The notes beneath the pieces were generated by a model. That model saw only the letters and a program-made list of their open reading frames with translations, searched no databases and was not told where the DNA came from. Shown one piece after another: positions 1 through 32,775 of a stretch of DNA of 34,580 bases; within the stretch, counting starts at the first letter, position 1, and each line of letters opens with the position of its first letter. Origin of the DNA: a virus; IMG/VR virus record IMGVR_UViG_3300042465_003411, positions 1 to 34,580 of that record. The stretch is one strand, 5' to 3'. The position numbers and the translations under genes are program-made.

Positions 1-370
1 TGATTCCTGAATTAATTAATGCATTCAGGATATTACCGGATGGTGTTGGGAGGATTTCAATTTTACCCATGATATGATCACCATTCCACCAAATGTCTTT
101 GATGTTATGACATACATTCTTAAGGTTGATAATTGTAGAATCTGGGTGATCTAATTCACCAACGGCTCTATTCTCTTTAACTGACTCCATGTACTTATTC
201 ATTTCTCTATCCCAGATTTTTCTGCTATAATATCTTCCATTGCCGTTCTTTACTTCAGCAGTAGCTAAGATACCCTCTACTAAAGGTAGTCCACTAGCAC
301 CTTTTCCTTCAGATAAACTTAAAGGTTTTGGTGTGAATGAGATAGTTTCAATAAGTAGGTTTTTAGTCAT
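1..370 (-). CDS. 21: Prohead core protease, gp21-like (partial, 3' end outside window)
   Basis: This open frame starts with ATG at 370 and runs off the low-coordinate edge, giving 123 codons. The translation contains NGNGRYYSRKIW, then NRAVGELDHPDS, then IWWNGDHIMGKIEILPTPSG. This order is characteristic of the T4 gp21 prohead protease family (serine protease, Ser/His/Glu triad). The His in GELDHPD is the likely catalytic histidine; the catalytic serine would lie beyond the edge. The enzyme cleaves core and capsid proteins after Glu in (L/I)xE|(A/G/S). A self-processing-like site, L19-S20-E21|G22, is present near its own N-terminus, as expected for a zymogen. It lies 2 nt after the 330-residue protein gene. 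In T4 order the scaffold gp22 and major capsid gp23 would follow, outside this window. Identity is confident from motif order; only the N-terminal part is seen. Confidence 0.9.
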   Translation of the reverse strand, partial: MTKNLLIETISFTPKPLSLSEGKGASGLPLVEGILATAEVKNGNGRYYSRKIWDREMNKYMESVKENRAVGELDHPDSTIINLKNVCHNIKDIWWNGDHIMGKIEILPTPSGNILNALINSGI

Positions 371-372
371 TA

Positions 373-1365
373 TTAATACCCTCTTTGTTTCAATACACTC
401 TTCATTGCTTCTTGCCAAACAGGAGCTGTACCCACAGCTTCATCAATGATCTCTTCACCGCCTGCTGCTTTTGGTCTTACAGTATCGCCAGAAATTCTTT
501 TTGCTGCTTTAGCTTTTTGAGCTTCATACATTTTTTTTCTTTTTTCTAAAAGAGCAATATCTTTTTTGATTTCACTAATTGCTTTTTTATCAACTACATC
601 CTTCATATCGTCACTTTCGGTCATAGTTAATCTATTTTTTAATTCTTCGATTTTCTCTTGAATTTTACTAGCCTTATATTCGTATGCAGCAACTTCACCT
701 AGTTTTTCAATTTCTTTTAGGTGCTTTTCAATTGCTCTCTTTTTAGCTTCTGAAAGTGTTTCTTTATTTGTCATGTTGTCTTTTGCTTCGTTTAATTTAA
801 CAGGTTCCATTCCTGAGGATTTGTACTTACCTGTTACTTCTTTTGTTGGACCTAAACCGGGAGCATCCTGAGTATATCCGATGCCTTTAATGCCAAATGC
901 TCCATCTTTAATGTAGTATAATGGATCTTTTTCAAGGTTCTTAAATACGATCTTCTTAAGTTCGTCTTCTGTTTTATCTGCATTTTTAGGATCTTTCATC
1001 TCAACATAATACCCTGATAAGAGTTCATTGGTAGAGATGTTATTATTATTCTTTTTATCTTCGTAATCGTATCCAGTGGTTTCTTTCTCTACTACCGACT
1101 TATCCGTATCTTTTAAAGCAGCTTTAACTGCTTCTGTATTTTCACTAAAGATTTTGAACCAGTTTGGTTCTCCTTCTTTTTGAATTAATACTCCGGTCAT
1201 GCTTTCTGATATAATTCCTCTTTCAGTAAGGTTGTGTATTGATTGATCAAATGTAAGTGCGCCTGTCACTACATTAGGGAATAGGGTTCTAGCTTCCTTT
1301 ATAAAAAGTTCTCTGTTACCTTTACCTTCTTTAATTAAATTATATTTGTCTTGTAGGCTTTTCAT
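373..1365 (-). CDS. Putative prohead core/scaffold-type protein, 330 aa
   Basis: I recognise this as a conserved unnamed phage head-module protein, not by a catalytic domain. It is Lys/Glu-rich with long predicted helices (about residues 185-290, probably coiled coil), typical of assembly-core proteins. It carries candidate gp21 sites at I11-K-E13|G, I22-K-E24|A, I52-S-E54|S, L191-N-E193|A, L204-S-E206|A and I307-D-E309|A. These would shred it to peptides as happens to T4 core proteins. It lies immediately upstream of the protease gene and downstream of the portal, the slot occupied by the core proteins gp67 and gp68 in T4. The core role is inferred from position, composition and sites. The start is ATG at 1365, preceded by a TATTTATA element. 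Confidence 0.65.
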   Translation of the reverse strand: MKSLQDKYNLIKEGKGNRELFIKEARTLFPNVVTGALTFDQSIHNLTERGIISESMTGVLIQKEGEPNWFKIFSENTEAVKAALKDTDKSVVEKETTGYDYEDKKNNNNISTNELLSGYYVEMKDPKNADKTEDELKKIVFKNLEKDPLYYIKDGAFGIKGIGYTQDAPGLGPTKEVTGKYKSSGMEPVKLNEAKDNMTNKETLSEAKKRAIEKHLKEIEKLGEVAAYEYKASKIQEKIEELKNRLTMTESDDMKDVVDKKAISEIKKDIALLEKRKKMYEAQKAKAAKRISGDTVRPKAAGGEEIIDEAVGTAPVWQEAMKSVLKQRGY

Positions 1366-6911: not shown

Positions 6912-7369
6912 GTTACAACTTCGTCTAATTGCTGCTTTGTCCAATAACTATAGTAATCTGTTAATTTAAGACTATTTGACTTAGAAGTCAAGTCTGCTAG
7001 GTCTTGAACTATCCATAAATAACAGTCCGGGAATGTAGTTGTTACTCCGTTAATTGTAAAAGGATTCCTTGGGTCATTATCTAAAACTACTTTATTATGT
7101 GATATGAAAATTTCATTAAGACTTTTACTTTTAATTTCTAGAGTTTCAATATCATAATTTTCATAAGTCGGTAAATAATAAATACAGACTTTATAAGTTA
7201 CTATATCTGCATTAGTTACTTCATTTTCTATACTATCGAGGTTTGTTTCCTGAATAGTGTATTCTTTATTATTAATAGCTGCTCTAGCAAAAGGGCAGAT
7301 AGGTTTATTATTTAATTCTTGTTTTGGTGTAGTTAGATGGTTAAACCATTTATCGAGATTTGCCAGCAT
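6887..7369 (-). CDS. Conserved hypothetical protein, 160 aa
   Basis: I recognise the N-terminal pattern LDKWFNHLTTPKQELNNKPICPFA as recurring in uncultured marine phages, but no function is attached to it. The CPFA element plus a later single Cys may suggest a redox or metal site, though only three or so cysteines are present. The C-terminal half contains DPRNPFTINGVTTTFPDCY and an aromatic-rich end. There is no signal peptide or membrane helix. Its start overlaps the end of the Cys-rich 144-residue gene by 20 nt and its end overlaps the cupin gene by 25 nt, so it sits in a tightly coupled group of small late genes. Confidence 0.6.
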   Translation of the reverse strand: MLANLDKWFNHLTTPKQELNNKPICPFARAAINNKEYTIQETNLDSIENEVTNADIVTYKVCIYYLPTYENYDIETLEIKSKSLNEIFISHNKVVLDNDPRNPFTINGVTTTFPDCYLWIVQDLADLTSKSNSLKLTDYYSYWTKQQLDEVVTWRNHTKI

Positions 7370-7784
7370 TCTTCTTATCTGTTATCGGACCTCCAACAAC
7401 CCAAGCATCACAAGTTCTAGCAGCTGCACATTTAAACTTAAGAAACCTGCAGTAACCTAAATCTCCTGCTTCAATAACATCAAAAGGATCTTCAGAACCT
7501 TCATCATCCCCTATTCCTTTGGCAATACAATCTAAAGTCTTTTTAGTTATATCAAATGCTGCACAATTACCGCAGAGTGATTTCTTAGCTTCTTCTGCAG
7601 AATCTAATTTCCACATATCTACCTTGGCTTGCCAGAATTTCTCATTAGGTTCGTTTGGATTTAATGGACCATAACCATATTCATTAATTGCCTTCTGTCT
7701 GTTCTGAAGGTTTAGTTCAATGTTCTGTGTTGGTGCAGGGCATTTTCCAATCTCTACTTCACTAAGTATATCTATTAGTTTCAT
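7350..7784 (-). CDS. Cys-rich conserved phage protein with head-targeting-like N-terminus, 144 aa
   Basis: The protein starts MKLIDILSEVEIG, a short Leu/Ile helix ending in ILSE, like capsid-targeting sequences of T4 internal proteins; residue 10 is Val rather than Ala or Gly, so cleavage is uncertain. Residues 13-50 (GKCPAPTQNIELN and YGPLNPNEPNEKFW) are followed by a Cys-rich domain with C71-x2-C74, C86, C112, C119 and C125. The pattern CGNCAAF...DLGYC...KCAAARTCDAW is one I recall from many T4-like cyanophage and marine phage genomes. Six conserved-looking cysteines suggest zinc or iron-sulfur binding. The gene is coupled by ATGA to the upstream 106-residue gene. Metal type and role are not determinable here. 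Confidence 0.7.
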   Translation of the reverse strand: MKLIDILSEVEIGKCPAPTQNIELNLQNRQKAINEYGYGPLNPNEPNEKFWQAKVDMWKLDSAEEAKKSLCGNCAAFDITKKTLDCIAKGIGDDEGSEDPFDVIEAGDLGYCRFLKFKCAAARTCDAWVVGGPITDKKNAGKSR

Positions 7785-8101
7785 TTTTTACTTTTTATTA
7801 TTAACTCCCCTAAGACTTCTAATTTACCTACTTCTTTTTGAAACTCTGTTGCAGACATATTTAAGGAAATACTACTCTTAACTGATGCAAATTCATTTAT
7901 AGCTTGCTTTCTATCAAATTTACCTTCGGCTGCTTTCTTATAATAAGGAAGTTTAACCTTAAAGTGATGCCAGGTTAGCATTGAAGCTCCACCTTTTTCT
8001 TGTGCAGTATTTGCTATTTTTTCAGCACCGTTCATTCGAGTTGTTGCAAACTCCTGAAAAGCGTCTTTAGCTTCTGTTAATAAGTTTAAAAGTTTTATCA
8101 T
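7781..8101 (-). CDS. Small internal-head-protein candidate with T4-like targeting peptide, 106 aa
   Basis: With the ATG at 8101, which overlaps the previous stop as ATGA, the protein begins MIKLLNLLTE|AK. Ten residues followed by E|A is the same length and cleavage type as T4 internal protein I (MKTYQEFIAE|A), which is targeted into the prohead and trimmed by gp21. The remainder is a small basic helical protein with a WHHFKVKLPYYKKAAEGKFD patch at about residues 44-63, also seen in other phage proteins of unknown role. An alternative TTG at 8116 adds five residues and was rejected because it weakens both the overlap and the peptide match. A packaged, injected protein is inferred. Confidence 0.65.
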   Translation of the reverse strand: MIKLLNLLTEAKDAFQEFATTRMNGAEKIANTAQEKGGASMLTWHHFKVKLPYYKKAAEGKFDRKQAINEFASVKSSISLNMSATEFQKEVGKLEVLGELIIKSKK

Positions 8102-9189
8102 TTTGTTTTTCCCCAAGTTTTTCCTTTTCCAGGTGTTTTACATTGTGCTGCTGTTGGTCTACAGGCAGGATATTTAGAGCGTTTCTCTCCTTCTTTTCTT
8201 CCGCAGGATTTATACCCTCCGTCTCCGTCTGGTGCATTACAGTCTACCCATCCTTTCCCTTTTCCTTTTGCTCCTTGACGGTTAAACCATTTATGAAGTG
8301 ATTCAGCTTCATTTATAAATTCTATATCTGTTGGATATTCTTTATTTTTATTATAAAATTTAACCATCCACGGTAATTCTTTCCAAGAAGTTACGCCGTT
8401 TGGTGTTTCTGCATCAAAATAATTCCCTTTATATTCGATCCAGGCATGTCCGAAAGTAGTACTTCTACTGTCTTCTGTGCTCATTATTTTTGAACCTGGG
8501 AGATGTTTTGCTAGGTTTTTAGCAAAGATATCACAAAAGCCATTATTACATTCCTCACCTCCAAATACATCCCAGTTCTTATCTACTAGTTCTAAGGCTT
8601 CTTTTTCGGTTTGAGCTAAAGCAGTCTTGTATGTATTATTTAAATTATTTTCTTTTAAATTCTTAACTTGAACTAGGTTTGTTTTAATTTTTTCATTTCC
8701 TAGAGCCCAGTTAGCTACAAGTCTATGATGTCCGTCGTAAATCACTTTTTCACCGTCTGGGAATTCAACAACATTTATAGCTGGTATTTCCTTTGAGTTT
8801 GTAATTATGTGTTTTACCTTATTACTTTGGATGTTAGGTTGTGTAATATGAATATCTTCTATATTCACATACTCTTCCTTGCTTTTATTTTTTTCAAATA
8901 ATTCTATTACTTCACTCCAGCTATGTTTACTTCTATTAAAGATGCTTTCTATATTTTTTGCATCATCGAATAGTTTACCTTTAGGTAACTCATCAATTTT
9001 TTGTTCTGCTGAGGGTACTGTATCTTCTTTTAATTTTTTCCAAATATCCCCTTGACGGCATCTCACTACTGCTCCTGATTTGTATGCCGAAGGTTTACCG
9101 TATTTACGATCAGCAATACGAAGACACCTATCACGCTTCTCTTTTTCTTCTAAAAGAATCTGCTGTAGTATGTCTGTGAGCTTGGTCAT
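8098..9189 (-). CDS. Multidomain cargo candidate: ParB-like and Cys-His-Asp protease-like regions, basic Cys-rich tail, 363 aa
   Basis: The N-terminus (MTKLTDILQQILLEE) resembles a head-targeting helix. Residues 21-55 hold a CLRIADRKYGKPSAYKSGAV...CRQGDIW module known from phage proteins of unknown role. Residues 105-175 contain VIYDGHHRLVANWALG, the signature of the ParB/sulfiredoxin fold. Residues 200-265 contain NGFCDIFAKNL (C219), FGHAWIEY (H248) and YFDAETP (D259), spaced like the Cys-His-Asp triad of transglutaminase or papain-like enzymes. A candidate gp21 site I292-N-E294|A precedes a basic tail (WFNRQGAKGKGKGWVDC...CGR...PACRPT) resembling the DUF5872-type domain. Functions are inferred from motifs; catalytic activity of either domain is unproven. 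Confidence 0.6.
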   Translation of the reverse strand: MTKLTDILQQILLEEKEKRDRCLRIADRKYGKPSAYKSGAVVRCRQGDIWKKLKEDTVPSAEQKIDELPKGKLFDDAKNIESIFNRSKHSWSEVIELFEKNKSKEEYVNIEDIHITQPNIQSNKVKHIITNSKEIPAINVVEFPDGEKVIYDGHHRLVANWALGNEKIKTNLVQVKNLKENNLNNTYKTALAQTEKEALELVDKNWDVFGGEECNNGFCDIFAKNLAKHLPGSKIMSTEDSRSTTFGHAWIEYKGNYFDAETPNGVTSWKELPWMVKFYNKNKEYPTDIEFINEAESLHKWFNRQGAKGKGKGWVDCNAPDGDGGYKSCGRKEGEKRSKYPACRPTAAQCKTPGKGKTWGKTK

Positions 9190-9197
9190 AGACTATT

Positions 9198-9743
9198 TTA
9201 AAAGAAAGTTTGTTCGTAGTAAAGTATTTCGAAAGAATTAGCAACGTTTACAAGCTGTGCTGCATTTAATAAGTCAGCATACTCTGCTACTGATTCTACT
9301 TGTCCGGTTCTTAATGTTTGTAAGAAATCGAATGTAGATAAGTCGGAAGAGAATATAGTTGTTGATACGTTATTGTATGCTAATAGTAAATCAAGTTCTA
9401 ATTTATATGCTTTATTAACAATATCAATAAGATTTGTGAAGTCTGGTATTAATTTGATTGGTGCAATTACCGGAAGTACATTCCAGTCAACCATGTACTT
9501 CTGTAGCATTTCTGCATGAGTTAATTCATTAGCAGCTTCTAATGCAAAGAATGCAGCTGCTTTATTATATGCTTTATCCTTACACCAGTTTGATGCATTT
9601 CTATAAAAGTAATGAGCAGTATACTCATCTTTTAATCTTTCAGAGAGCATCAAAACTACTTGAGGGTCTAAAGTAACCGGTATCATAACATCAGCAGGAT
9701 TTGCTGATTGTAATTCATTTAAAGTTTTTAATTTGGTTTTCAT
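9198..9743 (-). CDS. Ferritin-like diiron protein, 181 aa
   Basis: A four-helix ferritin fold is indicated. Helix A has DEYTAHYFYRNAS (Glu39 plus a downstream Tyr), helix B has LEAANELTHAEML (the ExxH pair), helix C has KAYKLELDLLLAYN, and helix D has QVESVAEYADLL. These match the ferroxidase-centre ligands of bacterial ferritin. The family oxidises Fe(II) and stores the product in a 24-subunit shell. The length is normal for ferritin plus an N-terminal extension of about 20 residues (MKTKLKTLNELQSANPADV). The extension starts like head-targeting peptides, but LNE is followed by Leu, a poor gp21 site. It sits among head-cargo candidates. Whether it acts in the infected cell or in the particle cannot be read from sequence. 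Confidence 0.85.
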   Translation of the reverse strand: MKTKLKTLNELQSANPADVMIPVTLDPQVVLMLSERLKDEYTAHYFYRNASNWCKDKAYNKAAAFFALEAANELTHAEMLQKYMVDWNVLPVIAPIKLIPDFTNLIDIVNKAYKLELDLLLAYNNVSTTIFSSDLSTFDFLQTLRTGQVESVAEYADLLNAAQLVNVANSFEILYYEQTFF

Positions 9744-9753
9744 ATAATGTTAT

Positions 9754-9761
9754 TATAAATA
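9754..9761 (-). promoter_or_regulatory. Intergenic TATTTATA element before ferritin gene
   Basis: The coding strand reads GCTATTTATAATAACATTAT before the ATG. The octamer begins 2 nt after the stop codon of the 202-residue gene and ends 10 nt before the ferritin start. It is one of the recurrent junction elements. Confidence 0.4.
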
Positions 9762-9763
9762 GC

Positions 9764-10372
9764 TTACCAGTATCCTGAGTAAGATCCTTTTAGTCCTAAA
9801 AGTTTAGCAAACCTTGGCAATCGACACGCCCAGTATCCCGGTTTAGTTTTATCTTTCTTACCTGCGCAGTTGTGTCTTTTTGCAAAGTTTACTCTTGCCT
9901 CAGAATCATTTATTTTAGCTTTTAAGCCAGTTGTTCCACCAAAAGAAACTTTCTTAATGCGTTTGGTTTTTGGATCTTTTACATAAACGTAAAATTTCTT
10001 AGAACCACCACGCTTTGGTTTACCTAACGGTACTTCTTTTCCTTGGTATTTAGCTTCTGTTAATTCTTCAGCCATTGGTAAGTCCAAAGGAACTAAATCA
10101 CCTTCATATAAGCCATATTCACCTAAGTGAGTTTCAGTTAAGATCTGCTTATCATCTGCTCCTACATCAATAATGTTTCTAGAGTATAAGGTTCTAGCTT
10201 CTTTCCATAGGTTTATAAAAGCAGGTGAACCGTATCTGAAAGTATTTTCTGTAAGTGGTTTCTTGTTTCTAATATGGTAAAGCAAGTTCTCTGAAAGAGG
10301 TTGTTGGAAGGTTATTCCTTCTTTTAATAACGGAGCCTTTGTTCCGCAAGTATTACATCCACAGCTACACAT
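9764..10372 (-). CDS. Head-cargo candidate with cleavable N-region and basic conserved C-domain, 202 aa
   Basis: The N-terminus has a compact Cys cluster (MCSCGCNTCG) and a candidate gp21 site L16-K-E18|G. A second site, L104-T-E106|A-K, separates residues 1-106 from a very basic C-terminal domain. That domain (about 115-190) contains KKFYVYVKDPKTKRIKKVSFG and ends in RHNCAGKKDKTKPGYWACR. I recognise it as a conserved module in T4-like cyanophage and pelagiphage head-region proteins; its function is unknown, and DNA contact inside the head is plausible from its charge. The ferritin gene follows after 20 nt. The start is the ATG at 10372. Processing at the two sites is inferred. Confidence 0.65.
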   Translation of the reverse strand: MCSCGCNTCGTKAPLLKEGITFQQPLSENLLYHIRNKKPLTENTFRYGSPAFINLWKEARTLYSRNIIDVGADDKQILTETHLGEYGLYEGDLVPLDLPMAEELTEAKYQGKEVPLGKPKRGGSKKFYVYVKDPKTKRIKKVSFGGTTGLKAKINDSEARVNFAKRHNCAGKKDKTKPGYWACRLPRFAKLLGLKGSYSGYW

Positions 10373-10381
10373 ATATTATAA

Positions 10382-11353
10382 TTATGATGGGAATAAGGTA
10401 TTAGTTATTATATTTAAAGCACCTTGGTTAGTAGATACGCCTTTGAGTAGTTGTTCGTCTGAAAGACTATCTATAAGTTCTTGGGTTATCTGCGTATATT
10501 TAATACTACCTTTTTGACTTACGTTAACTAAATATCCTCCGATACCCGGTTTCTTTGTTAGTTTAGTTGCTATTAAACGTCTCAGCATTTCCGCTGTTCC
10601 GTGTTCCGGGGTTATTTTACCTTCAATATTAAGTGCTTCTTTTACTGAGTCTATATTATTGTAGATGTTTTGTATTAATGCATAATCCCCTGCTATAGTT
10701 CTTAAATCACTCTGATCGAAGTCAGAGAGTCTTTTGAATGCTTCTAATAACTCTGGAGTGTTGAAGGTCATTGTTCCTGCGGTTCTTTTTCCTCCTTGGA
10801 AAGTCCCTACTAGAGTTGATACTCCAAATACTACTCCTAGGATTGCTATATTATCTTTATCAGATCCATAACGACCTAGAGTCATTGTAGTAGTTTCGTA
10901 AGCTTTGACTTCTAACCCGATATCTCCATCTACTATTAAATCAGGATTATCACTCCCTCTGCTATCTACAACAGTATGTCCTCTAGATAAAAGCCAGTGC
11001 ATAGCAATTTCTCCGTTTCCAGATCCTTTACTTCCTGCAGTATCAAGTTCTTTTCCTGATTTCGGAGGTGCAATTGGGTATAGTTTTGAGAAAATACGTT
11101 CATCTTCTCCTGAAAGGTTTATATTTTTACCTACAGAATATACACGGGAAGGTTGTGGTATTTCACCATTTTCATCTCCGGTTAGAACTTTAGCAGCAAT
11201 TTTATCGTAAATACTCCTGTCTTTAGGAGCTGCTGCTGCTTCTGCTTCAAATAATTCGAATAGAAGTTTTCTATCAGCTTCATTACTCAGGTCTGGATAG
11301 CCTTTAGGAAACTTGTATGAAACCTGTCTTATAAATTGTTCTACAATATCCAT
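10382..11353 (-). CDS. PD-(D/E)XK-like putative nuclease, 323 aa
   Basis: Residues 110-152 read GSGNGEIAMHWLLSRGH, then SDNPDLIVDG, then IGLEVKAYE. A Glu (E115), an Asp in PDL (D138) and an E148-V-K150 pair are spaced as in the restriction-endonuclease (PD-(D/E)XK) core. The N-terminal segment (KFPKGYPDLSNEADRKLLFELFEAEA) carries a candidate gp21 site L34-F-E36|A before the nuclease-like domain, so the mature form might be a packaged nuclease. The C-terminal third is helical with no motif I know. It overlaps the previous gene by 1 nt (TAATG). The nuclease call rests on motif spacing only; a structural DNA-binding protein with a decayed fold is an alternative. Confidence 0.6.
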   Translation of the reverse strand: MDIVEQFIRQVSYKFPKGYPDLSNEADRKLLFELFEAEAAAAPKDRSIYDKIAAKVLTGDENGEIPQPSRVYSVGKNINLSGEDERIFSKLYPIAPPKSGKELDTAGSKGSGNGEIAMHWLLSRGHTVVDSRGSDNPDLIVDGDIGLEVKAYETTTMTLGRYGSDKDNIAILGVVFGVSTLVGTFQGGKRTAGTMTFNTPELLEAFKRLSDFDQSDLRTIAGDYALIQNIYNNIDSVKEALNIEGKITPEHGTAEMLRRLIATKLTKKPGIGGYLVNVSQKGSIKYTQITQELIDSLSDEQLLKGVSTNQGALNIITNTLFPS

Positions 11354-11847
11354 TAAGCTTCCTCCGGTGTTTCTTCTGCTCCAACTTCCGGTGTTTCTTC
11401 TCCTGCGAGTGGTTCATCTAAAGCAGATTCCATATTACCGCCACCGCCTGTACTTCCTCCTCCTGTATCTGCTTCATTGTCTGGATTGACTGCTTTACCG
11501 TATCTAAGTAATCTAGCGATAGAACCTACTGCTTGATCTTCTTCTCCTAAATTGAGTAAGTAGTATCTTTTACCTTCAACTTCAGCCATCCAAGATCTCC
11601 CTAGATCCGATAGGTAAAAAGAAAAGTTATTTTCTAGGACTACTCTAAAGGTAGGTGGTTTTGGAGCAACCCACTGTATGTCTTTAACAAACAAATTAAA
11701 CTGTGGAGACATTAAGTCTGTGAGGATAGAGATCATATCCGGTACTTGATTTAGTATCTTATATTCTTGGTACTTATTGATACCTTGACTTTTCATCTTT
11801 TTAATGATAGTCTTTTTAATTATTGATCTTAATTCCTGTTTATTCAT
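11353..11847 (-). CDS. Hypothetical acidic-tailed protein, 164 aa
   Basis: The N-terminal 25 residues are a Lys/Ile-rich helix (MNKQELRSIIKKTIIKKMKS). A compact alpha/beta domain follows (about 30-125) containing FRVVLENNFSFYLSDLGRSW and KRYYLLNLGEEDQA. The last 40 residues are a low-complexity Gly/Glu/Pro tail (GGGSTGGGG, then repeated EETPE). I do not recognise a family. The tail looks disordered and acidic, as in some scaffold or head-internal proteins. The stop overlaps the next gene's ATG by 1 nt, suggesting it is made together with the nuclease-like protein. Confidence 0.55.
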   Translation of the reverse strand: MNKQELRSIIKKTIIKKMKSQGINKYQEYKILNQVPDMISILTDLMSPQFNLFVKDIQWVAPKPPTFRVVLENNFSFYLSDLGRSWMAEVEGKRYYLLNLGEEDQAVGSIARLLRYGKAVNPDNEADTGGGSTGGGGNMESALDEPLAGEETPEVGAEETPEEA

Positions 11848-11870
11848 CTGTTTGCTAAAGATACGGTTTA

Positions 11871-13688
11871 TTATTTTGTAAAGCCACCTTTTGTTTCAGT
11901 ATGTCTCATTACTCTGTGCACTACGTCGGTTAGTGGCATTTCATTTTCGGATACTTCATCAAAATAATGTCTTTGACTTAAGTTTGTAGTTTTTCTTTTC
12001 TTTAAATCAAAAGGAGTGATAAAGGCTCTACCTTCTGAATAGGAATGAATTACCTGGTAGAATTTACCATCTGCTCCCCTTACTACATCTCCGATATTTA
12101 AAGCAGTTCCTTCAGCGTCTCTTTTAGGTTCGTTATTTACCATTAAAGGAGCAGTGTTAGAAATTGATTCACCGTCAAGGTAACTTCTAACTGCATTAAG
12201 GTAATCTTCTGCCTTTGTTAATTTAGATTGAACCCACCCTTGTAATTGTGTCTTCTCTCCAATAGAATCAAAAAGTGATTTAGCATTTTTAACAATTGAG
12301 ATTAATTGTGTTCTAGCCATTTGACCTTCGTAGTCATATTCTTTTGCTTCAAGTATTGGATGCTTTGCTTCAGTAACTGGTGCACGGTGTGGTGTACTTA
12401 AATCAGGACTCCAATCTTTAATCATATTAATCCAGTAAGTCTTAATTGCTCTTAAAGCTTCTTCTCTAGATTCTTCCGGTATTCCTTTAAGACGTTCTTC
12501 GAAGTCTACAAGTACTTCTTCCATAGTCATTTCTACAGATGGACCAGATACATCAACGTAGTCATCATCATCGTAGGTTCTTTCAAAGAAATCGTATAAT
12601 CCTTCTGTAACAGCATCTCCTTTTTGTAGGTTTGAGATTCTATGTTGAGCTGCTGCAATTTTAGCTTTTTGAGCTTGAATTTCAAGATCGTTAGCTTTTT
12701 TATCTTCCGGGCTCATCGGCCCTGCTTCTTTCAATTTACCTAATACGCTACTAATAACCTCTTTTTTCAATTTAAGGTCTTTAGCTGCTTTTTTCATAGG
12801 CTCAGTCTTGTTACCATCTTTATCTAAATCTAGATAGTCTGGTTTAGCTCCTTCGCTTAATTCCTCAAAGTTGGATATACGTTTTAAGTGACTTAATACA
12901 ACTGATGCTCTAGGAGTGCCTCTATCTAATGAAATTTTAATTTTAGGTCCTATTTTTGTAAATTTAATACTGTTAGAAGTTAAAAAATCAGTAATCTTAT
13001 CAGAATCAGAAGCTGATTCAGTATCTATTGTAAATGATTTTGCTTCTGTTAAACCTACCCCTTCTTTAAAAGGTCTTGGGCAAGGTGTGCCTTTAACGTG
13101 AACGTGTCCACATCTTCCGCATAATGTACCTTTAGCTTCGTTCTGAAGTTTAATTGCTTTTTTAAGCATATCTTTTATTTCATCATTACCGTGGTGTTTG
13201 TCCCAAAGTTCTCTATACTCTCTCATATCTTGATCATCCCAAGTTTCAATATCCTTGGTTGCAAGTCTGTGAGTAGGATCTATCTTAGCTACGAAATCAT
13301 TCTCTCTAGCCTCGGTAACTTCTTTTTTGCTTTTTCTTTTAGTAAGTTCTGCTTTAGCATCTTCTAAATCCTGCTTAGTAAGTTTAACACCTTTCTCATT
13401 TTTTTTCTGAGTATAGTGCTGTAATTCATTATTTAGGTTTACAATATGTTGAGCTAATTCATTAGCAGTTAGATCCTTAAGAGACTCTGTCATGGTTTCT
13501 GTCATTCCCTGTATTAGTTTATCTGTAATATCAAATCTATCATCTATAAAAGCTTGTAGGATTGCATCGTAAACCCTCTTTCCTCCTTTTAGTTTCAAAG
13601 GATTAATTTCTAATGTTTTACCGTTGTTTAAGTAAACTTTAATTTTGCTTGGTTTTTCAAATTGATCCCAATCTTTATATAGTGACAT
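11871..13688 (-). CDS. Putative cleavable head polyprotein with repeated VTEAK/LTEAK sites, 605 aa
   Basis: I do not recognise a single family for the whole protein; it reads as a string of small modules joined by candidate gp21 sites. Sites are V124-T-E126|A, L213-T-E215|A-K, L277-S-E279|G, L319-K-E321|A, V360-T-E362|G, V438-T-E440|A-K and I445-L-E447|A-K. Between them lie a Cys-rich piece (CGRCGHVHVKGTPC, residues 190-203), a piece with an EF-hand-like loop (YLDLDKDGNKTEPM, 285-298) known from many phage proteins, an acidic helical piece (363-440), and a C-terminal module (525-580) resembling an SH3/KOW-type barrel. The gene neighbours other candidate cargo genes. Processing and packaging are inferred from motif placement. 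Confidence 0.6.
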   Translation of the reverse strand: MSLYKDWDQFEKPSKIKVYLNNGKTLEINPLKLKGGKRVYDAILQAFIDDRFDITDKLIQGMTETMTESLKDLTANELAQHIVNLNNELQHYTQKKNEKGVKLTKQDLEDAKAELTKRKSKKEVTEARENDFVAKIDPTHRLATKDIETWDDQDMREYRELWDKHHGNDEIKDMLKKAIKLQNEAKGTLCGRCGHVHVKGTPCPRPFKEGVGLTEAKSFTIDTESASDSDKITDFLTSNSIKFTKIGPKIKISLDRGTPRASVVLSHLKRISNFEELSEGAKPDYLDLDKDGNKTEPMKKAAKDLKLKKEVISSVLGKLKEAGPMSPEDKKANDLEIQAQKAKIAAAQHRISNLQKGDAVTEGLYDFFERTYDDDDYVDVSGPSVEMTMEEVLVDFEERLKGIPEESREEALRAIKTYWINMIKDWSPDLSTPHRAPVTEAKHPILEAKEYDYEGQMARTQLISIVKNAKSLFDSIGEKTQLQGWVQSKLTKAEDYLNAVRSYLDGESISNTAPLMVNNEPKRDAEGTALNIGDVVRGADGKFYQVIHSYSEGRAFITPFDLKKRKTTNLSQRHYFDEVSENEMPLTDVVHRVMRHTETKGGFTK

Positions 13689-13692
13689 AGTG

Positions 13693-14157
13693 TTAATATT
13701 TTTCTTGTAAAAAGTGTTTGATCTGATCTACTATTTCTGTCTTAGTAGGTTTTTTAACAGGCTCCCCCTCTTTTACTTCATAAAGACTTAGTTGTGCACG
13801 AAGGCTTTTTTTACCTTCATCGTTTAAGTATTCAGAGAAGTATGCTTCAAAGTATTTAATAGCTGCAATTCTGTAATCTTCCATAGTTTCAAAAGGAAGC
13901 TCTTCTTCATCTGCCCATTCTTCTAATTTAACAAAAGGAAGATGTATCTCTTTTGCATTTTCAAGATCTTTTTCAGCACCGACTGTCATAGTAACATCAA
14001 AAGGCTCATCTTCTGGTTCGAAGTATGAATCTTCATAGGATGTAATTTTACCGTGTATTTCCGGAACGTATTCTGTGGTGTTCTTAGAATCGTTATCGTT
14101 TTCTGCCATTAAGACGTACTTGCGTCTCCAATTTGACATATTGAAAGCTTCATTCAT
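13693..14157 (-). CDS. Hypothetical acidic protein, 154 aa
   Basis: This is a strongly acidic protein. Beyond a basic N-terminal patch (WRRKYVLMAEND) it has runs such as EPEDEPFDVTM and EEWADEEELPFETMEDY. The C-terminus (KKPTKTEIVDQIKHFLQEKY) is a predicted helix. I know no family and see no catalytic motif. Acidity next to packaged basic proteins could suggest a scaffold or chaperone partner, but that is speculation. It starts with ATG at 14157 after a short gap bearing the variant TATTTATT element and ends 4 nt before the 605-residue gene. Confidence 0.55.
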   Translation of the reverse strand: MNEAFNMSNWRRKYVLMAENDNDSKNTTEYVPEIHGKITSYEDSYFEPEDEPFDVTMTVGAEKDLENAKEIHLPFVKLEEWADEEELPFETMEDYRIAAIKYFEAYFSEYLNDEGKKSLRAQLSLYEVKEGEPVKKPTKTEIVDQIKHFLQEKY

Positions 14158-14160
14158 ATT

Positions 14161-14168
14161 AATAAATA
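14161..14168 (-). promoter_or_regulatory. Variant intergenic TATTTATT element before 154-aa gene
   Basis: The coding strand reads CCTATTTATTAATATGAATG, so this copy differs from the other seven in the last base. It ends 3 nt before the chosen ATG and follows the previous stop codon by 3 nt. Confidence 0.35.
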
Positions 14169-14171
14169 GGT

Positions 14172-14741
14172 TTATTTCTTTAACTTTTCAAGATACTCGA
14201 TAGCTTCTTGTTTTTGCTTTATTATCTTTTCTTTATTGATTTTTGACCAATTCTCTAATTCTCCGCTTTCTGAGATAAATCCATCATTGCTTTCATTGAT
14301 TAGATCATCTGTCCAGATTTCAAAGTTATTAATCATAGCGTCAATTTCAGAGTTGTGTATTCTTTCTTGGTACTCTTCCCACTTCCCGGTTCTTTTCAAT
14401 TCTGTCTCAAATTTAATCTGACAGTCAAAACAGTGGTGGTGTATATTATAAAACTGAGCATCGTAACGCCCCTTCATTAAAGTTTTACATTTCGGGCAGA
14501 ACAAGGGCATCTTGCCTAGGTCTCTTGCTTTCTGTAACTTAGAGATAGTCTGCTTTATTCCCCCTTTAATAGTCCATTGTCGACCATCCTCTTCCCAGAG
14601 TTCCCCTTCCTGTCTATCAACATCGTTTTTAATATACCCGGAAGAGACGCTGGTTTTTTCTCCAGTCTTTCCCTGTACCAGGTTTCGCATCCTCTGTAAG
14701 TCTGCTTCTCTAAATTCTTTTTTTAAAACTGATTGTGTCAT
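14172..14741 (-). CDS. Zinc-ribbon conserved phage protein, 189 aa
   Basis: A four-cysteine zinc-binding pair is visible at mid-protein: FCPKCKTLM, then HHHCFDCQIKFE, spaced by about 22 residues. Upstream lies READLQRMRNLVQGKTGEKT and WEEDGRQWTIKGGIKQT, a combination I recall from T4-like cyanophage genomes as a conserved protein of unknown role. The C-terminal 60 residues are a charged helix. A nucleic-acid or protein-binding adaptor is plausible for a zinc ribbon, but no partner is evident. It follows the 1112-residue gene by 12 nt and has no candidate gp21 site near its N-terminus, so it may not be packaged. Confidence 0.7.
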   Translation of the reverse strand: MTQSVLKKEFREADLQRMRNLVQGKTGEKTSVSSGYIKNDVDRQEGELWEEDGRQWTIKGGIKQTISKLQKARDLGKMPLFCPKCKTLMKGRYDAQFYNIHHHCFDCQIKFETELKRTGKWEEYQERIHNSEIDAMINNFEIWTDDLINESNDGFISESGELENWSKINKEKIIKQKQEAIEYLEKLKK

Positions 14742-14753
14742 TTGCTTTATAAA

Positions 14754-17700
14754 TTAAAATTGCGGTAAAGATAATGCTTTTAATCTCTTTCTCCAAAGTC
14801 CTAGAATATTTTCTTTATCTTCAGGAGTAATCTCCTGCATATCTAAGTAATCATTTAAAACATCCTTAAATGGTGTACGGGTCTTTTTAGCTTTCAAATA
14901 CATGCCCTGAAGCATCGGATCTAATTCTGATTGAAGTCTGAAGTAGTCTGCTTTAGGTAAAAGTTCCCAGTCAATCATCTGTCTCAGCATTTCATCATCT
15001 GGGGTCTCTTTTGCAGGTACTAAATTAACACCCATCTGTGTTAGATGTTCAATTTCATGTCTAACTACATCGATTAGGTCTTGATAAATTCTAGACCAGA
15101 ATTGAGGTAGTGATCTAGGATCAACTTGGAATCTAATTTCAAGATAGGCGAGATCTGAATCGTCTTCATCGTTTTTATCTTGTGCTTCAGCATCCGCTCC
15201 TCCGTCAACCTTGTAAGTACCTTCCTTGGTTTCTTTAACTAGAAGATCAGCACTTAAAATAAAATCTAATGGTCGTCCTTTTGCATCTTGAGTTTCGTAT
15301 TCCTCATCGTAACTTAGAGTATCTTCTTGTCCGTTATATTCTTCCTTCCAGGCAGCCATGATATCCTTAACTACTCTTCTAGTAATTGAGTCGTAAGCTC
15401 CCTCATTAATAGGCTGCATATCGTATGAACCAGGTGCGAATCCAGTCATGTTTCTGATGCTATTGTTTCCTTCTCTGTCGTTCTCCCAGGCTCTAAAAAG
15501 CATATTACCGTTATTATAGGCTTCGCTTTCAATGTCTGCTAGGTAATCATCCTCATTTACGTTTGTAGTCCCGCTCATATTCTCCAGCCTACCTTCGAGG
15601 TTTTGCATGTGATGGATCATCTCATGAGCAAATGATCTTAAAACATCCTTAGGGTGACGTCTGGTAATATAAAGAGTAATTACTTTGTTATTAGGATCGT
15701 AGTATGCGGTTCTCCCTAATGTAACTTTAGCGTTTTCTTCATCCTCTACGAACTCAATTCTAGGTGCAGGAGTAACGTTTAAACCTTGTTTAACCATAAA
15801 ATCAACTAGTTCTACAATATATGGTTCTAATTCCTGCTCTACTTCCTTATAACTCGGTGTAGTCTGTATAGGACTGTCTGCCGGTTCTCCGGTTGAGTAC
15901 AATCCTTCATTTAGATCCTCTTTCACAGGTCTGTATCCTGAACCGTAAGGTATGGCAGATCCTGCTTCTGGATCGGATGCTTCCTCTAGGTCGGGATTAT
16001 TATCGTGTGCACATACATCACCTGATGGTAGTGTATTATGGCATATGTATAAATCATCTCCGCCATCTGCTATTTTCCATGTCCAGCCGCAGTTATCACA
16101 AATAACTTCTGTGTCTGTTACTATTTCATTTAATTCTTCAAAAGTCATCTTAGGACTACTAGTCATGAAATTTGGTTTTCTCATGATAGTCTTAGCAATG
16201 GCTTTATTTGTCATATTTAAGAAGGGAATATTTAAATTTGTTGTTTTGTCGTTTGCAACAATTTCATCATACTCCTTAAAGAATTCAAAAAATTCCTTTT
16301 TATTTCTTCCAAGTCTTTTAAAGAATCCAATTAATTGTGCAAAAGAGATATCGGATTCTCTTCCGGTTAGTCTATCAAAGACGTGTTTGGAAGTTAAATC
16401 TACATCAATAGGAGCTAGTTGTGCATCAGCAAAAGCATCTGCTTGTTTTAATTCTGCAGGAGTTATTGATTCGTTGTTAGAATGAAAATTAATAAACCAG
16501 TTAGCTTGCTGTTTATCTAATGCAGTTGCATTCTCTCTATTTTTAAATCTTTTAGCTTTTTCAATAGTAACATCACCGCCGTATGCTTTCGTGATCTTTG
16601 CTTTGAAAGTTCCAGGTGCTCCGTTGTTAGTTCTTTTTCCTTTATATGCTTCTGTAAGGTCTTCTTTTTTTCCTTTAGAAAGAGCCTGAATGTATTCTTT
16701 AGCGGTTACTCCTTTAGGTAAAAAAGTTTCAATAGCTTGTAAGTCTTTATTTTTAATAGCAGTTCTTAATCCGCTGGCAGATAATCCTTTTAGGTTGCCA
16801 ATATTAACCGGAGTTACATTACTGTATTTCTCTCTGTTCTTCTCAACACTTCTCCAACGATCCTCTTCGTCTTTTCCAAAAACGGCAAGGTATTTATTTT
16901 CCGGATGTGCTTCAAATTCTTGATATGCATCTAAAACCGGAGTTGCATTTTGTGCTAATTTAATCTCAACGTTGCTTGGAATTAAGCCTTTTTGTTTATA
17001 AAGATCCCAAACTGCCATTGCCTGACTTGCATCAACAGGTACTTGACCTTCTTTTACTCTTGGTTGTTTTGAAACATAAACATAAACCTTGTTAACCTTT
17101 GGTGCAATTACTTGAATTGCTTTTAGATGACTGGCATGAGGTGGTTTGAATGCTCCAGGAAATACTGCAATAGTTTGTTTTCCTATTTCAGCCTCTAAGA
17201 TTGGTCTTATGAGATCTGTAATAAATGAACCGTACTTTTCTTCTAAAGTTGCAACCGTATCTAAAGCCATCTGCTTATTATCTCCTTTAGGAGTATTAAC
17301 TTCTCCGGACTTAATTGATACCATTGATTTAAAAATACCTTTAATTCTATTCTTAGATCTAGGATTTTTTAATTTTTTAAGGTCAGAAACTAAATCTTTA
17401 AATGATTGGTCAATATTATAATCTGAAAGTAGTTTTTTTACATCTGCCCAGTTGCTTGATTTCCAAACTTCTGTTCTATCAAGTTGTTTATAGTCCTGAT
17501 CTAAGGTTACAATTCTAAGAGTTAAACCTGCTGAAGATAAATTAAATTCATATTCTTGATTCGGTTCTAATGTAGGGATATTCTTAATACCCATCTTAGC
17601 AATTACTTTATTAGGATCTTCTTCCAAAGTAACTACTTTAACTAAACCTAAAATTAAACCTTGAATTTCTGCTGGATAATCTAAGAAAGTCTTTTTGAAG

Positions 17701-18092
17701 TCGCCTTCTTCCTCTGATAGAGCAATTATATTATCAACTTGAACGAATTCACCAGGCATTCCTACAATCGGATATAGGATTGTTACAATCTCCCCGGTAT
17801 TCATGGTTTTTTTGCCTTTGTACTTCTCACTCTTAAAAGGAACGATTATGTCGTCCGGAAGTGATTCTAAATACTTAGCAAGCTGCTTTTTAAATTCTTT
17901 CTTGTCTTCCCCTTCGAAAGAAGTAATCAGATCAATATCACCGAAGTCTTCCTTAGCAGAAGTATTGTATGAACCGGAAACTTTAGCTGATTTAAAGCTA
18001 GGTACTTTACTTAATACCTTATCAATATATTCTTGAACCGTCTTCTCGACAGCTGATCTTGGTATGCGATTACCTCCTGCTGAACCTGACAT
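14754..18092 (-). CDS. Giant putative cleavable polyprotein: nucleotidyltransferase, NMNAT-like, zinc module, two HExxH domains, 1112 aa
   Basis: Five candidate gp21 sites split this protein at domain borders: I298-L-E300|A, L479-T-E481|A, L702-E-E704|A, L727-N-E729|G and I895-N-E897|G. Segment 1-300 is a Pol-beta-type nucleotidyltransferase (GSYN at 40-43, D52-I-D54, third Asp D120). Segment 301-481 matches a nucleotide adenylyltransferase (HxxH in FPGAFKPPHASH, H319 and H322; SASGLR at 438-443), the size of a stand-alone NMN or pantetheine-phosphate adenylyltransferase. Segment 482-704 has a conserved phage module and a four-Cys zinc site (C665, C668, C684, C694). Segment 730-897 has H823-E-x-x-H827, and segment 898-1112 has H1012-E-x-x-H1016. 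The gene overlaps the upstream nucleotidyltransferase gene by 1 nt. Domain calls are good; cleavage and packaging are inferred. Confidence 0.7.
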   Translation of the reverse strand: MSGSAGGNRIPRSAVEKTVQEYIDKVLSKVPSFKSAKVSGSYNTSAKEDFGDIDLITSFEGEDKKEFKKQLAKYLESLPDDIIVPFKSEKYKGKKTMNTGEIVTILYPIVGMPGEFVQVDNIIALSEEEGDFKKTFLDYPAEIQGLILGLVKVVTLEEDPNKVIAKMGIKNIPTLEPNQEYEFNLSSAGLTLRIVTLDQDYKQLDRTEVWKSSNWADVKKLLSDYNIDQSFKDLVSDLKKLKNPRSKNRIKGIFKSMVSIKSGEVNTPKGDNKQMALDTVATLEEKYGSFITDLIRPILEAEIGKQTIAVFPGAFKPPHASHLKAIQVIAPKVNKVYVYVSKQPRVKEGQVPVDASQAMAVWDLYKQKGLIPSNVEIKLAQNATPVLDAYQEFEAHPENKYLAVFGKDEEDRWRSVEKNREKYSNVTPVNIGNLKGLSASGLRTAIKNKDLQAIETFLPKGVTAKEYIQALSKGKKEDLTEAYKGKRTNNGAPGTFKAKITKAYGGDVTIEKAKRFKNRENATALDKQQANWFINFHSNNESITPAELKQADAFADAQLAPIDVDLTSKHVFDRLTGRESDISFAQLIGFFKRLGRNKKEFFEFFKEYDEIVANDKTTNLNIPFLNMTNKAIAKTIMRKPNFMTSSPKMTFEELNEIVTDTEVICDNCGWTWKIADGGDDLYICHNTLPSGDVCAHDNNPDLEEASDPEAGSAIPYGSGYRPVKEDLNEGLYSTGEPADSPIQTTPSYKEVEQELEPYIVELVDFMVKQGLNVTPAPRIEFVEDEENAKVTLGRTAYYDPNNKVITLYITRRHPKDVLRSFAHEMIHHMQNLEGRLENMSGTTNVNEDDYLADIESEAYNNGNMLFRAWENDREGNNSIRNMTGFAPGSYDMQPINEGAYDSITRRVVKDIMAAWKEEYNGQEDTLSYDEEYETQDAKGRPLDFILSADLLVKETKEGTYKVDGGADAEAQDKNDEDDSDLAYLEIRFQVDPRSLPQFWSRIYQDLIDVVRHEIEHLTQMGVNLVPAKETPDDEMLRQMIDWELLPKADYFRLQSELDPMLQGMYLKAKKTRTPFKDVLNDYLDMQEITPEDKENILGLWRKRLKALSLPQF

Positions 18093-19057
18093 TATGCTGT
18101 TTTATATTTTATTAAGTTAGAATCATCTGGTAAGAATTTACCTTTTAAACCTAAACGCTCCTGGTTTTTAATCCAATAGTCTTGTAAGTCTTCAGGAATA
18201 TCTGCTCTAGTTGAATCTAGGATTTTTAAGAACGTATCATAAATACTATTTAAATCCTGTTCTGATATATTAGATTTTAAATAATCTATTAATTCAAAAT
18301 AATCATTAAGAACATCTTGAGTAATATTAGTTCCGTAAAGCTTGTTCATTAACTCTAAAGTCTGTTTAGGAGTTTCTGCTTCTACTTCCCTAGTTTCTTT
18401 ATCTAGGATTCCTTGTCCGTGTTTGAAGATTTTACCTTTATTTGTAAATAAGGCTACAAGTAGTTGAGTTCTATGTAAACCCTTAACGTTGCCTTTATAG
18501 AGATTTGAATAGTAGCTGAATCTTAACCATTCAGGATTTCCTACATTTATATCGATTTGAACGCTTTCTGGAAGCTCTTCTCCTGCTTCATTATACTGTG
18601 GGTAAGCAAAGAATAAAGAACCGTTAGCTGCTGATTTAGGATCCGATTCAATAGTTGCAGTTGCTTCATTGACTCTATTTGATATAAGTTCCAACATTGC
18701 TCTTAATGCAACTTGGGCCGGAGTAGCTGTTCTTACTCTCTTAGCAATCTTTTCAGATAACGCGTTAAATTCTGTAGGATCGATATTCCAGCCTTCAAAG
18801 TCTGGTTTATCACCATTCATGAAGTTTTTTACATCGTAAGATAAATCAATGTCTCCAGAGATATCTTTTTTCCCAGCAGACCCTAATTTCTCAAAGGATT
18901 TAAATGTAGAGGCTTTCTTAGGAAAAATATTCCCAAGCACCTCCACAAATTTTTCCATTGTAGATTCTATGTTTTCTTTTTTGATTGATGCGGTTGTTCC
19001 AAAAACATTACCGCCCTCGTTTAAGATTTGTTTTAAAAGAGAGGTAAGCTTGATCAT
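18092..19057 (-). CDS. Nucleotidyltransferase with head-targeting-like peptide, 321 aa
   Basis: A Pol-beta-superfamily nucleotidyltransferase core is visible: LGS at 58-60, GDID with D69 and D71, and a third acidic residue D169 in VQIDIN. This triad binds Mg-NTP. Such enzymes add nucleotides to RNA, proteins or small molecules; the acceptor is unknown here. The N-terminus MIKLTSLLKQILNE|GG is a short amphipathic Leu/Ile helix ending in an ideal gp21 site (L12-N-E14|G), very like capsid-targeting sequences. The next gene starts with a second, different nucleotidyltransferase, so the two may act as a pair. The ATG at 19057 is supported by the targeting-like peptide and by the TATTTATA element 4 nt upstream. 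Confidence 0.75.
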   Translation of the reverse strand: MIKLTSLLKQILNEGGNVFGTTASIKKENIESTMEKFVEVLGNIFPKKASTFKSFEKLGSAGKKDISGDIDLSYDVKNFMNGDKPDFEGWNIDPTEFNALSEKIAKRVRTATPAQVALRAMLELISNRVNEATATIESDPKSAANGSLFFAYPQYNEAGEELPESVQIDINVGNPEWLRFSYYSNLYKGNVKGLHRTQLLVALFTNKGKIFKHGQGILDKETREVEAETPKQTLELMNKLYGTNITQDVLNDYFELIDYLKSNISEQDLNSIYDTFLKILDSTRADIPEDLQDYWIKNQERLGLKGKFLPDDSNLIKYKTA

Positions 19058-19069: not shown

Positions 19070-19861
19070 TCACCCTTTCAGTTTGATGCTGGTAGGTAAT
19101 ATTTCTGTTGATGGTTTAAGTTCGGGATGTTTTATTTTAAAGATCTCATATAAGTGCTTGAAGATTCTTTTGTTTTCTTCTAGAGGTTCTGTTGTCTCTC
19201 TAACTTCCCATCCTTTACCTTGCATCTTGTCTGCTTTCTTGCTTTCACCTCTAGTCATTGCTTTTAACCATAAAATGCCCATACGGTCAATTGGTCTATC
19301 AAAGCATTCGTTCCAACCGCTTGCATAACAGGCAAGTTGTAAATCAAAAGTATCATGAATAGCGTTTGAAGTTTTAATATCAAGTAGCCAAAGTTCACCT
19401 TCAATCTCAACAATTAAATCAGCAGTACCTGCAATCATTAATTCATCAGAGAAAATATGAACCTCAGATTCTACTAAAGTTGGTTTATAAGTCTCCCAGA
19501 ATTCAACAAATTTTAAAATCATCTGCCAAACTTTAAGACTGTACTTAGTAGTTCCCCATTCATTTAACCAATGAACTTCCTCACCTTTTAAATAAGATTC
19601 GATAGCACTATGAACCTGTGTACCTTCTTCCCCGGCACGTCTCATAATGATATCAGCGTTTGTTCCCACTTCTTTTAACCAGGTTTCAAAGAATTTATCT
19701 TTAGGGAAATAAGATAATACAGTAGTTACGGAGGGATAAAAAATTCCTTCCTTTCTCTGATAGTATCTAGAGTCTTGTAGAGTGATTTGGCGAGCGGTTG
19801 AATCTGGATGGATTAACCTTTGAACTCTTTTGTCTTTTACGTTTTCGTTTTTTTCAATCAT
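19070..19861 (-). CDS. RecB/Cas4-fold PD-(D/E)XK exonuclease-like protein, 263 aa
   Basis: Motifs of the RecB-like nuclease family are in order: FYPSVTTVL near 41, GTQVHSAIESYL with H84, IAGTADLIVE with D148, LLDIKTS with D161 and K163, and LQLACYASGW with Q175 and Y179. These build a two-metal DNA exonuclease site. The iron-sulfur cysteine cluster of typical Cas4 is absent, so it is better called a phage RecB-like exonuclease. A role in phage recombination or replication is likely. The start overlaps the primase stop (ATGA), so the two are co-translated. There is no head-targeting peptide or clear gp21 site at the N-terminus. Confidence 0.85.
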   Translation of the reverse strand: MIEKNENVKDKRVQRLIHPDSTARQITLQDSRYYQRKEGIFYPSVTTVLSYFPKDKFFETWLKEVGTNADIIMRRAGEEGTQVHSAIESYLKGEEVHWLNEWGTTKYSLKVWQMILKFVEFWETYKPTLVESEVHIFSDELMIAGTADLIVEIEGELWLLDIKTSNAIHDTFDLQLACYASGWNECFDRPIDRMGILWLKAMTRGESKKADKMQGKGWEVRETTEPLEENKRIFKHLYEIFKIKHPELKPSTEILPTSIKLKG

Positions 19862-32372: not shown

Positions 32373-32775
32373 TATTTAAATTTATTTCTAAAGTATCTGT
32401 CATCCCAGTATTTACTATACTGTAATTAACTTTTATAAATATAGTGTTATAATCTTGTGAAGTTTGTATTGTAACTATTCCCTGTATATTTGGAAAGTAT
32501 TTCTCTATAATACTTCCAATGTAATTTTCTATTTCCGCAACCCCTAAAGTTGTTATTTGTTCAAATACAAATTTACGTAACCCTGCCCCAAAAGTAGGGT
32601 TAAAGATTTTTTCCTGAGGTCCAGTCAATAGAAAATTTATTAGGTTATTCCTTATAGCATCTTTAGTTGTAAATGTTGGCTTAAATACAGAATTGGATTT
32701 AAAAGGCAAAGATACCCCAACCGCTTTACTCGGATTCTGATCTATAGGGGCGATCTTTACTAATCCAAATGCCAT
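32365..32775 (-). CDS. 25: Baseplate wedge protein, gp25-like, 136 aa
   Basis: The GPW/gp25 family pattern is clear: TTKDAIRNNLINFLLTGPQE, then NPTFGAGLRKFVFEQ, then IENYIGSIIEKYFPNI. In T4, gp25 sits at the inner baseplate and helps nucleate sheath assembly. The length matches T4 gp25 (132). It lies between a small helical protein and the gp6-like wedge gene, with a 1-nt overlap upstream and 8 nt downstream, so inner wedge proteins are co-translated. An octamer TATTTATA also occurs inside this gene at 32434-32441, about 60 nt before the gp6-like start, but coding constraint could explain it. Confidence 0.92.
   Translation of the reverse strand: MAFGLVKIAPIDQNPSKAVGVSLPFKSNSVFKPTFTTKDAIRNNLINFLLTGPQEKIFNPTFGAGLRKFVFEQITTLGVAEIENYIGSIIEKYFPNIQGIVTIQTSQDYNTIFIKVNYSIVNTGMTDTLEINLNNG

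Follow-up and report, generated by a model that had tools for sequence, protein, structure and literature searches.

A phage polyprotein of exchangeable modules joined at candidate prohead-protease sites

Is the protein encoded at positions 11871-13688 of this viral DNA one folded enzyme, or a chain of small pieces to be parted in the phage head? The window, by which we mean the whole analyzed stretch of 34.6 kb, is a virus record of a T4-like phage in which all major genes lie on the minus strand (Table 1). The initial annotation had described a 605-residue protein at this locus and proposed a string of packaged peptides with seven candidate prohead-protease sites. The open reading frame was borne out. 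It is read on the minus strand, and the plus strand of the interval is full of stop codons. The seven quoted sites (E126, E215, E279, E321, E362, E440, and E447) are all present at their positions in the protein, here called P0001. Two further matches to the same pattern were found, E68↓S and E209↓G, where the arrow marks the proposed cut. The site E184↓A (QNE↓A) is weaker since its P3 residue is not hydrophobic, yet it acts as a junction.

The pattern [LIVMF]xE↓[AGS] occurs nine times in P0001, compared with 2.3 times in residue shuffles (p=0.0004), and the strict form [LIVMF][TNS]E↓[AG] five times, compared with 0.25 (p=0.0002). The replication and tail proteins of the window (5,088 aa) contain no strict match and no excess of the loose form, and the portal and terminase contain no strict match. 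Nine strict matches (1.6 expected) fall in the remaining genes of the interval 7350-19057, which separates the terminase from the replication genes, and three (0.4 expected) in the genes adjoining the protease. The site excess is limited to P0001 and other head-cluster genes. These counts indicate that the sites are concentrated where a prohead protease would meet its substrates.

A gp21-type protease gene is present at the window end, and its product carries its own LSE↓G near the N-terminus. A search of the record for the HK97-type protease PF04586 gave no match. The 330-aa protein encoded next to the protease is a probable prohead core protein, and gp199 of Flavobacterium phage immuto, the closest cultured relative found, is its positional counterpart. 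The gene order of immuto is that of the window: primase, exonuclease, NMNAT polyprotein, module proteins, terminase, portal, protease, scaffold, and major capsid protein (MCP). The immuto MCP has a VSE↓A in the region that corresponds to the propeptide of gp23. When the sequences were read by eye, the fused homologue of the 164-aa protein downstream of P0001 was found at the polyprotein C-terminus in contig L006 and in immuto gp191.

Two neighboring genes are recorded here as separate observations. A ferritin-like gene (9198-9743, minus strand; PF00210, E=1.6e-19; NCBIfam non-heme ferritin) lies inside the head/cargo cluster, with the terminase gene on one side and P0001 on the other. The 363-aa protein at 8098-9189 (minus strand) differs from the 156-aa immuto gp186 (L081 15565-16035) by a ParB-like/YunG-like insert with an LKE near its start and an INE↓A near its end, joints of the P0001 type.

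Table 1. Features of the window and modules of P0001
Feature	Coordinates	Strand	Remarks
gp21-type prohead (head maturation) protease	2..418	minus	phrog_207, E=6.9e-38; truncated by the window end
330-aa protein adjoining the protease	373..1365	minus	8 sites vs 1.7 expected
Portal	2478-4367	minus	phrog_213
Large terminase	4396-5970	minus	
164-aa protein downstream of P0001	11353..11847	minus	Homologue fused to the C-terminus of relative polyproteins
Modular polyprotein P0001	11871..13688	minus	Open ORF, 605 aa
Module A, residues 1-68	13485..13688	minus	Ends MTE68↓S
Module B, residues 69-126	13311..13484	minus	Ends VTE126↓A
Module C, residues 127-184	13137..13310	minus	Ends QNE184↓A
Module D, residues 185-209	13062..13136	minus	Cys/His zinc-ribbon-like peptide; ends FKE209↓G
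6-aa piece, residues 210-215			Ends LTE215↓A; precedes module F
Module F, residues 216-279	12852..13043	minus	Ends LSE279↓G
Module G, residues 280-321	12726..12851	minus	DxDxDG loop; ends LKE321↓A
Module H, residues 322-362	12603..12725	minus	Ends VTE362↓G
Module I, residues 363-440	12369..12602	minus	Acidic; ends VTE440↓A
7-aa piece, residues 441-447			Ends ILE447↓A; precedes module J
Module J, residues 448-605	11874..12347	minus	Helical hairpin J1 (450-504) and beta-rich tail
Second polyprotein, 1112 aa	14754..18092	minus	Pol-beta-type NTase, NMNAT, two HExxH-type pieces
Exonuclease	19070-19861	minus	
Primase	19858-20784	minus	
gp6-type baseplate protein	30513-32372	minus	
gp25-type baseplate protein	32365-32775	minus	

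The pieces of P0001 span 25-158 aa, mostly 40-78. Several descriptions in the initial annotation agree with what we found: the Cys-rich piece has the arrangement C-x2-C..H-x-H..C, the loop piece has its DxDxDG loop at 280-305, and the acidic piece has a net charge of -12. The C-terminus is beta-rich, but its likeness to SH3 was not confirmed, because the fold search with the P0001 model gave no PDB match at E≤0.001. The model includes a predicted alpha/beta domain. P0001 has no match in Pfam, NCBIfam, PADLOC, PDB sequences, or the named PHROG families, and with no confident fold match either, we propose no enzyme activity for it.

Relatives of P0001 on viral contigs do not align with it end to end and contain common pieces in differing orders. 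The junctions were read directly from the sequences; automatic tabulation per site misaligned several sites. Contig L002 has the order A-D-G-B-(other)-I-J, and L082 starts with the residue after E68, that is, with module B, which is joined straight to D (GVTE↓AKGTLCGRC) and D to G, with modules C and F absent. Module B stands between SLNE↓A and SMNE↓A in L148, and module F between LNE↓A and LNE↓ inside a different polyprotein in L132. Module A is found alone or in mid-chain in other polyproteins (L002, L004, L005, and L007), ending NLSE↓A or NLSE↓T. Module H is retained in L003 and L084, and in L001 and L082 an unrelated piece takes its place exactly between E321 and position 362. Module I is deleted in L003, where LTE↓ runs into the start of module J. 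Modules J1 and D both occur in L006 and in immuto gp191.

The surroundings of single modules give the same picture across more sequences. A [LIVMFYA]xE lies at most 10 residues upstream of module D in 23/23 cases (23 distinct contexts; 31% at random), of module G in 47/53 (57 distinct contexts; 39%), and of module J1 in 66/70 (72 distinct contexts; 39%). Since modules are permuted, deleted, and replaced at glutamates in the relatives, the sites are the joints of a shuffled chain. Module swapping itself is seen directly in these relatives. Judged from the sequences, E68, E126, and E362 are true module junctions in the relatives, and the evidence strongly supports P0001 being a string of modules exchanged at these glutamates.

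J1 behaves as a hub module, and the polyproteins that contain it reach about 1260 aa; in two of them, L089 and L118, an NMNAT domain stands first (phrog_3041, E down to 2e-56). The polyproteins L004 (7473), L005 (7437), and L007 (7209) have in common a conserved short stretch, MKD(I/L)QKIKEFFSK.L(N/K)E↓. It is N-terminal in L004 and L007 and resembles a T4 capsid targeting sequence.

We then related homology breakpoints to the sites. In P0001 alone, a breakpoint lies within 3 aa of 7 of the 9 sites, compared with 2.8 expected after rotation (p=0.003). The main set consisted of 792 non-redundant proteins from the loci; breakpoints were counted if seen in at least two pairs, and the ends were trimmed and low complexity was filtered in the final scan. 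Breakpoints occurred at [LIVMF]xE↓[AGS] at 2.8 times the expectation (z=15.8) and at the strict form at 3.45 times; sequence relatedness inflates such z values and the counts are not phylogenetically independent, and the flat controls from the same data are the safeguard. In these controls, replacing E by D, K, Q, N, or R gave no excess (0.6-1.1x), and Glu without a hydrophobic P3 residue gave 1.15x. The untrimmed and unfiltered scan was noisier (2.0-2.5x), and other charged dipeptides were enriched too.

A ranking of all 400 P3.P1 pairs that used no prior pattern placed L.E and V.E first and K.E third in the main set, and I.E and M.E were likewise among the five highest. The protease gp21 of T4 cuts by an L/I-x-E rule (PMC9026906), and the ranking recovers this specificity. 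The second set, 414 non-redundant proteins fetched with the NMNAT polyprotein and having a few contigs in common with the first, gave 2.35x for the loose and 2.9x for the strict form, with L.E and I.E on top; its Q control reached 1.5x and an unrelated P.P pair was also high. Two common breakpoints have no canonical site in P0001, the end of the G core near 306 and the end of J1 near 504, and near the latter the relatives do have a site. A recombination motif at the DNA level was also considered for the junctions. It was ruled out, because the Ala/Gly codons right after the junction match background usage, indicating selection on the peptide and not on a DNA site.

The AlphaFold model of P0001 has a pTM of 0.29 and low-confidence joints at 181-187, 206-216, 274-299, 322-331, and 427-451. 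E209, E215, E279, E440, and E447 are inside low-confidence stretches and E321 is at the edge of 322-331, but E68, E126, and E362 are placed in helices, which are predicted with middling confidence. The contrary outcome, with most sites inside ordered cores, was looked for in the model and was not found.

The sister polyprotein of 1112 aa is predicted as separate domains, with matches to Pol-beta-family and NMNAT structures and low-confidence joints at 285-304, 475-493, 700-714, 718-744, and 875-897. Five of its sites, E300, E481, E704, E729, and E897, are in linkers predicted to be disordered. The prediction places E348 within the NMNAT domain, and this site is probably not used for cutting. 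For the two proteins together, 10/15 sites are in linkers of pLDDT<50, compared with 19% of residues, 19% of the other Glu (Fisher p=2e-4), and 12% of a hydrophobic-x-(D,K,Q,N,R,S,T)-(A,G,S) control, although low pLDDT may partly stem from shallow alignments. Near-identical strains of the 1112-aa polyprotein (L139, L140, L145, and L147) have module swaps right after LNE/LTE joints. L139, with 96.5% DNA identity over 8 kb, diverges right after ELNE657. L147 (90.6%) departs at NLNE541 and rejoins at TLNE655 with a foreign module between, and L145 (89%) diverges three residues past DLTE481.

Module-bearing proteins have been detected in virions of cultured cyanophages. In Synechococcus phage S-SCSM1, ORF89-93 are labeled virion proteins from mass spectrometry (PMC9602691). 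ORF92 starts with a copy of module G. ORF91 is an NMNAT, and its N-terminal sequence, MKSFLQFLKE↓A, resembles a T4 targeting peptide. ORF111 of S-CREM2, with 8 unique peptides in the virion proteome (PMC10665884), carries VKE↓AAKPDFLDMDGDG, which is module G. Because module G is the sole module that these proteins have in common with P0001, the data support the class rather than P0001 itself. A second module with a DxNxDG loop (PVGKED.D.DNDGK...DKYL.NRR) is common to immuto gp191 and S-SCSM1 ORF92, and it starts E↓ALD in both (L081 18387-20912; L136 11956-13518).

We therefore favor, with a probability of about 0.72, the reading that P0001 is a modular head-cargo polyprotein that is cut in the prohead by a gp21-type protease. 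Small modules, either independently folding or short and flexible, would be strung on L/I/V/M-x-E↓A/G/S junctions. The full chain would most likely enter the prohead core by the affinity of at least one module, and the protease from the same cluster would cut the junctions in trans, as the site specificity suggests. One P0001 polypeptide would thereby become about ten small pieces, and at least some of these may be retained in the head and reach the host along with the DNA, like T4 IPI and Alt. Because every module has its own cut site, recombination could add, remove, or exchange modules and leave packaging and release intact. A single gene seems to let the phage fill its head with many small cargo proteins and set them free. 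IPI of T4 is believed to cross the portal in its folded state (PMC9026906), and cutting a long chain into pieces of IPI size is a plausible reason for the joints. Of the original proposal of a packaged-peptide string in place of one folded enzyme, the string is upheld by the module shuffling, and the packaging of the pieces is putative.

The same cuts could serve disposal. P0001 could be a core or scaffold protein that helps to build the prohead core and is then chopped to exit and make room for DNA, with its pieces as waste. The scaffold proteins gp22 and gp67 of T4 are cut into several fragments which mostly leave the head (PMC9026906), the scaffold-like gp203 of immuto is also rich in xxE↓A/G sites, and the common J1 module could be a core-binding part. 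However, the Cys/His ribbon, the predicted alpha/beta domain, and the NMNAT and Pol-beta folds of the sister gene would be needless in a disposable scaffold, and rapid module exchange suits a payload more than a scaffold. The P0001 gene is also outside the portal-protease-MCP block, beyond the terminase and about 7.5 kb from the portal gene, and module-sharing relatives and NMNAT proteins were detected in purified virions. Module identity and the virion data favor cargo over a discarded core, though not decisively, and we regard the disposable scaffold as unlikely.

It is less probable still that P0001 is an ordinary multidomain protein of the polyvalent type, packaged or expressed whole, with its E-rich joints serving as uncut flexible linkers. 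Polyvalent proteins are long phage proteins of shuffled domains, some of which are delivered uncut, such as the N4 vRNAP (PMC5512222), and joints of the P0001 type are charged and disordered. A generic linker, however, would not pair a hydrophobic P3 with a Glu P1 while being indifferent to Asp, Lys, Gln, and Asn, and the joints have the specificity of gp21, which the cluster encodes. That the sites are meaningless chance matches is very improbable. The motif has just four residues, and the sister E348 within a folded domain indicates that single matches can arise by chance, but the shuffle tests, the controls within the window, and the breakpoint coincidence repeated in the second set contradict chance as a general explanation.

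Beyond this locus, we lean slightly toward a cargo-loading system that is general among aquatic T4-like phages, in which head polyproteins would be cassette chains with prohead-protease sites as joints, and new modules would be automatically packaged, freed, and delivered. Such a system would parallel, in trans, the polyproteins of RNA viruses, and large module pools would be common to Bacteroidota phages and cyanophages. If the cargo reading is true, it would account for many virion proteins labeled 'hypothetical' in T4-like phages of marine and fresh waters and would show a route for fast change of the injected phage payload. It would also give a simple rule to find and delimit injected mini-proteins, namely to cut at L/I/V/M-x-E. 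The role and number of internal head proteins per phage become testable by proteomics on cultured phages. We found no paper on modular joints at prohead-protease sites in the literature searched, which excludes subscription journals and preprints.

Among known systems, giant phages of the SPN3US/phiKZ type (PMC10052503) resemble our proposal in that the prohead protease cuts several sites per protein after x-x-E. There, however, the cuts shred an N-terminal propeptide before one mature protein, the motif is A-x-E, and module shuffling is not described. T4 gp22 and gp67 are likewise cut into many fragments by gp21, but they have scaffold roles, their genes are near the portal and MCP genes, and so far as tested they show no modularity from phage to phage.

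The internal proteins IPI, IPII, IPIII, and Alt of T4 are closer to P0001, with junctions that fit the gp21 L/I-x-E rule, the same protease family, and T4-like phages as carriers. P0001 has two features of a gp21 substrate, namely the L/I-x-E motif and a cognate protease gene in the same genome, and IPI, at about 8 kDa, has the size of its modules. A T4 internal protein is one cargo with one N-terminal cut, whereas P0001 has about ten cargo-sized modules with a site at every joint. No sequence homology to IPI-III or Alt was found in Pfam, NCBIfam, or the named PHROG families. P0001 also has no recognizable N-terminal capsid targeting peptide of 10-20 residues, its first site being E68; short N-terminal peptides ending xxE↓ do occur in L004, L005, and L007.

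Polyvalent proteins (Iyer et al., 2017; PMC5512222) are, like P0001, long shuffled chains of many modules with predicted delivery together with the DNA. P0001 shares with them several unrelated domains per chain that are shuffled between elements, and the Pol-beta NTase and HExxH pieces of the sister protein are typical of that class. None of the polyvalent hub domains (MPTase, ART, ArdC-N, Pol-beta NTase, and so on) was found in P0001, and its modules are smaller and mostly of unknown kind. For polyvalent proteins, the proposed processing is mostly in cis, through metallopeptidases embedded in the chain or assemblin-like domains at the C-terminus, whereas the joints of P0001 fit a separate, trans-acting prohead protease. 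Lacking the targeting peptide and sequence relation of the T4 proteins and the hub domains of the polyvalent proteins, P0001 is a variant rather than a member of either class. In its proposed working it resembles a multiplied set of T4 internal proteins, and also a polyvalent protein whose protease acts in trans.
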